Of a DNA stretch of 64,000 nt, positions 1 to 44,992 are shown in pieces. Positions within the stretch are counted from its first letter, which is position 1, and each line of letters opens with the position of its first letter. The notes below the pieces were generated by a model, which was not told where the DNA came from, ran no database searches, and saw only the letters and a program-made list of their open reading frames with translations. This DNA is from Alphaproteobacteria bacterium (GTDB lineage: Bacteria > Pseudomonadota > Alphaproteobacteria > Rs-D84): positions 1 through 64,000 of the forward strand of contig JAGBXO010000004.1 in the NCBI GenBank assembly GCA_017629245.1, in the 5' to 3' direction. The translations under genes and the position numbers were made by a program.

Positions 1-116
1 TCATGCGTTGTGCCCAAATCTTCATCATTTGTTGGTGCGGTTGCCAATACCGGATTTGCTGCCAACATGGCACACAGTGATACTGTAAATATAAACTTTC
101 TGGCTTCCAACGGCAT
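1..116 (-). CDS. secreted surface/adhesin-like protein, N-terminal fragment (runs off window)
   Basis: Only the first 38 codons are inside the window. The translation starts at the ATG at 116-114 behind a GGAG ribosome binding site, and gives a signal peptide followed by a segment ending in APTNDEDLGTTH. It matches the N-terminus of the gene at 44105-44992 almost residue for residue (FSVSLCAMLAANPVLATAPT there), so the two are paralogs. By analogy it would be a secreted protein with tail-fibre-like repeats, but the rest of this copy cannot be seen. Its upstream region is also a near copy of that gene's leader. Function unknown. Confidence 0.8.
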   Translation of the reverse strand, partial: MPLEARKFIFTVSLCAMLAANPVLATAPTNDEDLGTTH

Positions 117-220
117 ACGAATCTCTCCTTTCTATTTCAAATCTTGGTGGTGATGCGGAATTGAATAGAGTGTATTTTAATAACCACACGGGTCATCAAA
201 ATGGGGCGCATCACCACAAT

Positions 221-252
221 AAAAAAACCACCAGAATTAAATTCAAAGTGGT
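221..252 (-). terminator. leader terminator 2 (copy 1)
   Basis: On the minus strand ACCAC...GAATT pairs with AATTC...GTGGT, followed by seven T. Its 5' arm overlaps the segment CCTCCTGACC that can instead pair with an upstream GGTCAGGAGG. Confidence 0.7.
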
Positions 253-353
253 CAGGAGGTTCAAGACAATTACAGGAATTGTGTGCTTATTCAATATATT
301 CACATCCCTCCTGACCAAAAATGATCAGGAGTTTTTTTCAACGGAACCATAAT

Positions 354-376
354 AAAAAAAGCGCATAATATGCGCC
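354..376 (-). terminator. leader terminator 1 (copy 1)
   Basis: On the minus strand the stem GCGCAT/ATGCGC is followed by seven T. The other leader copy has a different stem sequence (AACGCG/CGCGTT) at the same place, so the fold is kept while the bases change. Confidence 0.75.
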
Positions 377-476
377 ACAAGTATGTATTCCGACGCCTGT
401 ACCGAGGTCTTGACACCCCATCGCGACAATACATCACGACACAAACATTTTAACAGATTATTGAAATGAATGTCAA

Positions 477-43699: not shown

Positions 43700-43726
43700 A
43701 ATCCCCCAATTTGGGGGATTTTTTTA
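43700..43726 (+). terminator. terminator of the PpiD-like gene
   Basis: ATCCCCCAA / TTGGGGGAT hairpin with seven T. Confidence 0.85.
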
Positions 43727-43846
43727 CTAAATAATTCTTTGCAATTGACATTCATTTCAAAATTCTGTTAAAATACCTGTGTCATGATGAATTTGTCATG
43801 ATGGGGTGTGGAAACCCGTACACGAAGCGTCTGGAATAAAAATTTC

Positions 43847-43869
43847 AACGCGTTATTACGCGTTTTTTT
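43847..43869 (+). terminator. leader terminator 1 (copy 2)
   Basis: AACGCG / CGCGTT perfect stem with a TTATTA loop and T run. Confidence 0.8.
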
Positions 43870-43968
43870 ATATCTGGAATGAAAATACTCCTGATCTTTA
43901 TGGTCAGGAGGGCATGCGAATATAATGAATAAGCGGCACAATTCTTCGTGATTGTTTCCAACCTCCTG

Positions 43969-44000
43969 ACCACTTTGAATTTAATTCTGGTGGTTTTTTT
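43969..44000 (+). terminator. leader terminator 2 (copy 2)
   Basis: ACCAC + GAATT arms pair with AATTC + GTGGT across a one-base turn and small internal loop, then seven T. The 5' arm shares bases with the alternative pairing CCTCCTGACC. Confidence 0.7.
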
Positions 44001-44104
44001 GTTGTGGTGATGCGACCCATTTTGCTGACCCGTGTGGTTGTTAAAATACATTCTATTCAATTCCGCATCACCACCAAGATTGAAATGAAAAGGGAGAGAT
44101 TCGT

Positions 44105-44992
44105 ATGCCATACGATGTAAAGCGTTTTATATTTTCCGTTTCACTGTGTGCCATGTTGGCGGCAAATCCGGTATTGGCAACCGCACCAACAAATGATGAA
44201 GAATTGGGCACAACGCATGATGTATATGTTGAATCAACATTAAATCAGGCAACGAATGGTATTGCGGGTGTCAGTTATGTAAATCGTATGGTAAATGCGG
44301 CGGGCAATGCCGCCGATGCGGCCGAAGCACACGCCGCCGCCGCGGGCGCACATGCGTTAAGTGCCGCCCAATCCGCAGATGAAGCACACAAAGTTCTGGC
44401 AGATAAAGTTAATATTGACCAGGGTGCATCTAATAAGGCCATGGTGACGGATGATAAAGGGACGGTTTACCCGGGGTATATTACAAATGATATGATTGAC
44501 GACAATGCAGTGACGCTGGATAAGATAAAAAGGGGTGAAGATGCTAGTGTTTTGCTTGTGCGGTCGACGGGGATTTCCGCCCATATGGCGTGGGGTAAGA
44601 TTGATAATGAACATATTTCTGATGGTGCGGTGACAAGTGATAAGATTGCCAAAGGTGCGATAACAGCGGATAAGCTTTACCTTTTTCATGAAGTTAAAGC
44701 TGGGATGCCACTAGTAATTGAATGGAAAAATAACACTACGGGGATGACTGCTGGGCCTGGAACAATATTGCCTTCTGGTATTGTTTCAGCGGACGAAAAT
44801 GGGATGGCTTTGGTTTCTCAAAAACATGTCGACTCCAGTGGGCGAGCTTCGTATGTGACCGAATGGGGACAGGTTTCTTCTGTGGGTATTGCCAACGGCG
44901 CAGTGACGATTGATAAAACCGCAGGTGTTGTTGGTATGGTGCCGGTTGGTGGCGAAGGCGCCAATACATATGGTTCGCTTTGGATAGAGTAA
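44105..44992 (+). CDS. secreted protein with tail-fibre-like repeats (surface/adhesin candidate)
   Basis: 295 residues. A signal peptide (FSVSLCAMLAANPVLA) is followed by an Ala-rich helical segment (AADAAEAHAAAAGAHALSA) and short repeats of the type DNAVTLDKIKRG, DGAVTSDKIAKGAITADKL and NGAVTIDK. This repeat style is common in phage tail fibres and trimeric surface fibres. The N-terminus and the whole leader are nearly the same as in the partial gene at 1-116, but both carry different surroundings. The C-terminal GMVPVGGEG...GSLWIE part may be the tip. Probably surface-exposed, role unknown. Confidence 0.68.
   Translation: MPYDVKRFIFSVSLCAMLAANPVLATAPTNDEELGTTHDVYVESTLNQATNGIAGVSYVNRMVNAAGNAADAAEAHAAAAGAHALSAAQSADEAHKVLADKVNIDQGASNKAMVTDDKGTVYPGYITNDMIDDNAVTLDKIKRGEDASVLLVRSTGISAHMAWGKIDNEHISDGAVTSDKIAKGAITADKLYLFHEVKAGMPLVIEWKNNTTGMTAGPGTILPSGIVSADENGMALVSQKHVDSSGRASYVTEWGQVSSVGIANGAVTIDKTAGVVGMVPVGGEGANTYGSLWIE

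Follow-up and report, generated by a model that had tools for sequence, protein, structure and literature searches.

What kind of RNA separates the promoter from the start codon of a surface-protein gene in the 64,000-nucleotide stretch of alphaproteobacterial DNA analyzed here (the window)? A preliminary description of this stretch read the leader as an attenuator with mutually exclusive hairpins, a reading that the comparison of homologous sequences supports. We consider it probable (roughly 0.7) that the leader is a cis-acting, riboswitch-like transcription attenuator and one copy of a new family. The RNA is knotted, about 220 nt long, and lies between promoter and gene (Table 1). The promoter is where it had been placed, and 54 of 66 copies have the −10 box 12 nt before P1, which should put the RNA 5′ end at or beside P1. 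Just before the promoter, at window positions 43700–43727, lies the ordinary terminator of an upstream PpiD/SurA-like gene. The leader folds with z = −6.3, none of 200 shuffles being as good, and a terminator scan found 6 terminators where 0.3 were expected, picking up T1 too. The product of the regulated gene has a weak PHROG match to tail fibres and no Pfam match. The second copy claimed for the window (117–476, minus strand) indeed keeps all elements, with a T1 stem of different sequence; its gene runs past the contig start.

Table 1. Features of the leader and its surroundings, in window coordinates
Feature	Position	Strand	Basis
Promoter TTGACA-18-TAAAAT	43745–43774	+	sequence; family −10 box spacing
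P1, 5′ hairpin, 7–8 bp	43781–43802	+	pairing across copies
P2 hairpin GGGG-UGU-GGAAA-CCC	43803–43817	+	compensated stem
PK1 5′ word GGAAA, P2 loop	43810–43814	+	pairs with UUUCC 43955–43959
PK2 5′ word ACGAAG	43822–43827	+	pairs with P7 loop CUUCGU 43944–43949
P4 arm, variable in length and sequence	43828–43887	+	moderate support
T1, optional terminator-like hairpin (stem 43847–43864) and U-run within P4 arm	43847–43869	+	42/66 copies
P5 hairpin, competitor of P8; 5′ arm 43888–43896, 3′ arm 43902–43910	43888–43910	+	covariation
P8 5′ strand GGTCAGGAGG, includes P5 3′ arm	43902–43911	+	covariation
P6, conserved A-rich internal loop GAAUA..GAAUA (probable)	43912–43937	+	covariation
P7 hairpin, loop is PK2 3′ word	43939–43954	+	covariation
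J7/8, PK1 3′ word UUUCC	43955–43959	+	complementarity to P2 loop
P8 3′ strand CCTCCTGACC; final 3 nt are first 3 of T2	43962–43971	+	covariation
T2 intrinsic terminator, stem 43969–43994, then U-run	43969–44001	+	covariation, U-run
11-bp stem 44004–44014/44064–44074, between T2 and Shine–Dalgarno	44004–44074	+	surface-gene accessory
Regulated gene, ATG 44105	44105–44992	+	295-aa signal-peptide surface protein
Second copy, core P5 to T2	224–331	−	92.4 bits

The individual parts of the RNA recur across its copies with changing sequences. P1 has all 7 of its 7 bp in 65 of 66 copies, against a mean of 9 after shuffling, through 42 combinations of arm sequence. The P2 stem is complete in 97 of 98 copies, its third pair being GC, GT or AT, and is compensated elsewhere (GAGG..CCUC, GGAG..CUCC). 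In 135 of 143 copies, five nucleotides of the P2 loop form a word exactly complementary to the 5 nt that separate P7 from P8 (PK1); there are 37 different words, and about 6% matches would be expected were the words re-dealt. A second long-range pairing, PK2, joins the segment after P2 to the P7 loop, with a mean run of 5.15 as compared to 2.69 in shuffled sequences (maximum 2.83 in 200) and 77 different loops in 106 copies. By eye, both pairings also hold in distant families. With the P4 arm, the distance from GGGG to P5 spans 40–110 nt across the family. P6 is 97.4% paired, with both sides changed in four of five pairs. Because some copies (L040, L044, L056, L069, L226, L228) carry an extra P6 hairpin beyond the GAAUA/GAAUA element, the latter is probably an internal rather than a terminal loop. 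P7 has arms CAAU/AUUG or CUAU/AUAG in other copies, and 65 of 66 copies have a run of four or more U after T2. Among the conserved features of the sensor, P1, P2, P6, P7, PK1 and PK2 all covary and the A-rich P6 loop is kept.

The alignment of homologs and scoring of covariation that had been proposed as a check were run, and the covariation exceeds chance: in 58 copies, P5/P6/P7/T2 shows 95.6% standard pairs with 12 pairs changed on both sides, the alternative P8/P6/P7 shows 98.0% with 9, and none of 500 shuffles matched any covariation measure. The conserved machine consists of P1, P2, P5/P8, P6, P7, T2 and two long-range pairings that the preliminary description had missed, and is thus a larger element than the one described there. 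The two terminators of that description are both present at this locus, although a T1-like hairpin occurs in only 42 of 66 copies; its 11-bp stem is likewise present, although only in this genome's surface-gene copies and not as a general feature. T1 and this stem on the ribosome-binding side are therefore accessories outside the conserved element. T1 was also considered as an essential part and rejected, being absent in 24 of 66 copies. As to topology, the words of PK1 and PK2 are nested with each other, and the pseudoknot-free minimum-energy fold draws them as one long helix; on this computation, the two could join into such a helix instead of two pseudoknots. The double-pseudoknot topology seems preferable, since the P2 and P7 stems carry compensatory changes of their own, with the long helix as a possible additional state.

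P5 and P8 share one strand, and only one of them can form. The alternative pairing proposed for this locus is real, CCTCCTGACC being the full complement of GGTCAGGAGG; the competing hairpin occupies the place claimed for it, and the overlap with the 5′ arm of T2 is confirmed. Beyond this locus, both helices are kept through the changes TCCTGACC, TCCAACC, TCCAGCC and TCCTGCC, each across at least four sequence types, with P8 overlapping the base of T2 in all of them. In an alignment built on a model without P8, this helix has at least 7 of its 8 bp in 105 of 116 copies as compared to 48 in shuffled sets (maximum 62), and its pair 6 is A-T in 49, T-A in 48 and C-G in 5; P5 stems of 6 bp or more without interruption are seen in 100 of 116. 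P8 takes up the first 2–4 nt of T2, and the loss of 3 nt is computed to weaken T2 from −7.8 to −0.8 kcal/mol at this locus and, averaged over copies, from −9.2 to −2.6 kcal/mol. The total energies of the P5+T2 and P8 states differ by 0.9 ± 2.8 kcal/mol (65 copies), before any tertiary or ligand energy, and such computed near-equality is the balance that a switch would need. As in a terminator-type attenuator, the leader lies between promoter and open reading frame (ORF) on the same strand, and its antiterminator and terminator are mutually exclusive with covariation. Since the overlap amounts to only 2–4 nt, P8 might coexist with a weakened T2.

How would such an RNA act? Transcription would begin at P1, and the two long-range pairings would dock the 5′ part (P1, P2, the word after P2, and P4) on J7/8 and the P7 loop in the 3′ part, producing a compact sensor around the three-way junction P8/P6/P7 with its A-rich P6 internal loop. 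When the signal is absent, P5 would be kept as a local hairpin, leaving the strand that begins CCUCC free, T2 would form, and RNA polymerase would stop before the gene. When the sensor is stabilized, for which a small molecule or ion is the likeliest agent, P5 would give up its 3′ arm to P8, the closing helix of the sensor fold; P8 would then pull the first 2–4 nt from T2 and allow the gene to be transcribed. This scheme draws directly on the conserved pairings, both alternative helices included, the P8/T2 overlap, the placement of promoter and gene, and the near-equal computed energies; from these we infer the switching itself, its direction, which is probably ON, and its signal, for which a small ligand has slightly better than even odds, a protein or RNA being the other choice. 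The leader is thus riboswitch-like by its logic, and membership among riboswitches proper would hinge on a ligand that is here putative.

The genes behind the leaders fit an attenuator in their placement. An ORF starts close downstream in 150 of 169 copies examined, with a Shine–Dalgarno-like motif in 141 of the 150, and the ATG mostly lies 26–36 nt past T2. A crude and loose signal-peptide test was passed by 56 of 61, 50 of 73 and 11 of 16 targets in three sets, as compared to 22 of 53 ORFs of the window, in a plain count comparison. Pfam assigns targets to small HTH regulators, outer-membrane beta-barrels, opacity and surface-antigen proteins, Stealth proteins and glycosyltransferases, many others having no Pfam match; PHROGs adds repressors and antirepressors, and pilin-like proteins could be read from the sequences in distant families. 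For the most part, then, the targets are small HTH regulators and proteins that are secreted or lie on the surface. Because they are so diverse, they offer no metabolic hint of the ligand.

The family is large and lineage-specific. By blastn, the leader is present in 26 of 59 related genomes, all of one genus. A covariance model of the core from P5 to T2 (R1, built from 58 copies) matches 179 of 201 genomes of the window's order, in 18 of 23 genera; with its tight scoring cap lifted, it finds 9 copies in this genome and 2, 31, 55 and 76 in four relatives, the last of which measures 1.1 Mb. These searches modeled the core, so leaders with the 5′ half alone would escape them. One shortened leader (L008, G000:C4:108000–112200) lacks P5 to P7 but retains P1, a hairpin resembling P2, T2 and the stem downstream; behind it lies the gene for a 698-aa protein related to the surface protein of the window. 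Contig breaks fall within this surface-gene family (window 1–116; the end of G000:C6, L007), and copy numbers in fragmented genomes are therefore lower bounds. A broader model, R2, has matches in 26 of 385 genomes drawn from the class, of which 22 belong to other orders than the window and spread over twelve further families, and many have several copies; the family is thus present in several other small-genome alphaproteobacterial families. Among 398 genomes drawn from the phylum, the one match outside the class was weak (E = 1.6e-4) and about what chance would give, and the RNA family is for this reason alphaproteobacterial. By ClpB, the closest named records are alphaproteobacterial MAGs of horse-faecal and rumen origin. 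Its confinement, narrower than that of most ligand riboswitches, counts against a riboswitch.

Several copies lie in unusual settings. Two to four complete copies follow one another in tandem at L192:169–909, L185:518–876, L195:502–866, L213:2470–2834 and L202:629–968, every copy having a promoter of its own and often no gene before the next; the lack of intervening genes at L192, L185, L195 and L213 counts against an attenuator. Plasmid and phage records gave no blastn match; four IMG/VR viral contigs carry copies. One of these looks phage-like, and the gene behind its RNA (L328:5462–5553) resembles Rha regulators by eye; on the others (L329–L331) the copies stand at prophage-like sites.

Might something other than a metabolite bind this leader? 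A protein or trans-acting RNA could instead shift P5/P8, serving as a global envelope-gene regulator in a lineage poor in other global signals. One RNA before up to 76 diverse genes per genome is how the regulon of a global factor would look, the family is restricted to one bacterial class, and tested genomes of the window's family lack both RelA/SpoT (PF04607, not found in eight genomes) and GGDEF proteins (not found in G000, G060, G171, G183 and G205, with 2 to 76 RNA copies each). We nevertheless regard such a regulator as unlikely, considering that the double long-range fold and compact conserved loops exceed the needs of most protein-binding leaders. The same absences make c-di-GMP and ppGpp unlikely signals in the window's family, and other nucleotides, metabolites, ions or protein are the remaining candidates. 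A thermometer or other physical sensor, in which temperature or ions shift the P5/P8 balance with no specific ligand, would profit from two states so nearly isoenergetic, but melting requires neither an elaborate conserved P6 loop nor double long-range pairings, and we deem it quite improbable.

Other readings question whether the leader attenuates locally at all. A processive antitermination element resembling the EAR or put RNAs would make RNA polymerase ignore T2 and later terminators, in keeping with a position directly 3′ of the promoter, long-range pairings and surface genes downstream; little credence can be given to it, as in all sequence types some nucleotides belong to both P8 and T2, and P5 is a competitor of P8 for one strand, which is what local attenuation looks like. 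It is also very unlikely that these are free-standing small RNAs ending at T2 with mere read-through into the downstream genes: they do own a promoter and a terminator, and there are the gene-less tandem copies, but Shine–Dalgarno motif and ATG follow shortly after T2, at a fixed distance in most copies, with little space for a second promoter. Translation-coupled attenuation by a leader peptide, with the nearly invariant AGGAGG of P5/P8 as ribosome-binding site, is extremely doubtful and was rejected, no conserved short ORF being found in 66 copies; a start codon 3–10 nt past AGGAGG occurs in only 18 of 66, mostly as GTG and with varied ORF lengths, and no more than 17 of 66 have a Shine–Dalgarno-led ORF of 8 codons or longer.

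The pairing words evolve in a peculiar manner. Among within-genome pairs of leaders at least 85% identical outside PK1, the PK1 words differ in 11 of 14, a small sample of non-independent pairs restricted to copies with exactly matching PK1 words, and in two pairs that are 97–98.5% identical PK1 differs by 2–3 of 5 letters with both strands changed. L090 and L094, like L039 and L041, are near-identical paralogous leaders whose PK1 words are different yet complementary. It is odd that compensated change should be so fast beside sequence that hardly changes. Gene conversion might homogenize everything except the words, which would be spared because a half-converted word breaks the fold. Alternatively, there may be selection against pairing between copies; by eye, genomes showed no tendency against using a PK1 word more than once (among G032 copies, GAGAA, CAGAA and GGAAA each occur twice).

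Does the RNA belong to a described class? The preliminary description recognized none, and Rfam 15 (4227 models) concurs: at the gathering threshold only tRNAs are matched in the window and 20 homologous loci, and at a permissive threshold the best sub-threshold matches fall far below gathering. A keyword search of PMC8040213, on structured RNAs from gut microbiomes, gave no match, and the passages and table rows consulted in PMC2864571, short of an entry-by-entry comparison with its motif list, hold no matching motif. No description was found in the literature searched, which excluded subscription literature and preprints. In its layout of promoter, sensor, shared-strand antiterminator against intrinsic terminator, and gene, the RNA resembles terminating riboswitches with pseudoknotted aptamers such as SAM-I and c-di-GMP; it differs from them by its fold, the absence of an Rfam match, a ligand that is only putative, its up to 76 copies in a 1.1-Mb genome, and the five carrier genomes without GGDEF. 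According to PMC11218506, the c-di-GMP-I riboswitch Bc1 has two terminators in its expression platform, and two terminator-like hairpins are likewise found in the window's leader, whereas its T1 is optional (42/66) and belongs to the P4 arm, which precedes the switching region, and the Rfam search finds no relation between the aptamers. The EAR/epsC and put antitermination RNAs are also structured RNAs near the 5′ end of surface- or phage-gene transcripts; in the new RNA, by contrast, the terminator strand itself joins the switch, and Rfam includes epsC, which gave no match. JUMPstart/ops and other short surface-polysaccharide leaders share multi-copy control of envelope genes, but are short elements, whereas the new RNA is folded, about 220 nt long and has its own terminator.

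More tentatively, and at somewhat less than even odds, the family could be a new riboswitch class that responds to a signal not yet linked to RNA. In gut Alphaproteobacteria with reduced genomes and no c-di-GMP or ppGpp enzymes, it would be the chief global control over secreted and surface proteins as well as over many small HTH regulators; its two self-complementary words vary between near-identical paralogs as if to stop copies from pairing with each other. The order Rs-D84/Candidatus Enterousia is uncultured, and its genomes are reduced to about 1 Mb (PMC12306168). An RNA of this size that has two covarying long-range pairings, is carried by most genomes of a gut order and is absent from Rfam would be a new regulatory RNA class, and would provide a handle on surface control in bacteria of about 1 Mb that have no c-di-GMP or ppGpp enzymes and whose order is still uncultured. 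The rapid, compensated change of pairing words between paralogs is in itself unusual in evolution and lends itself to a direct test.
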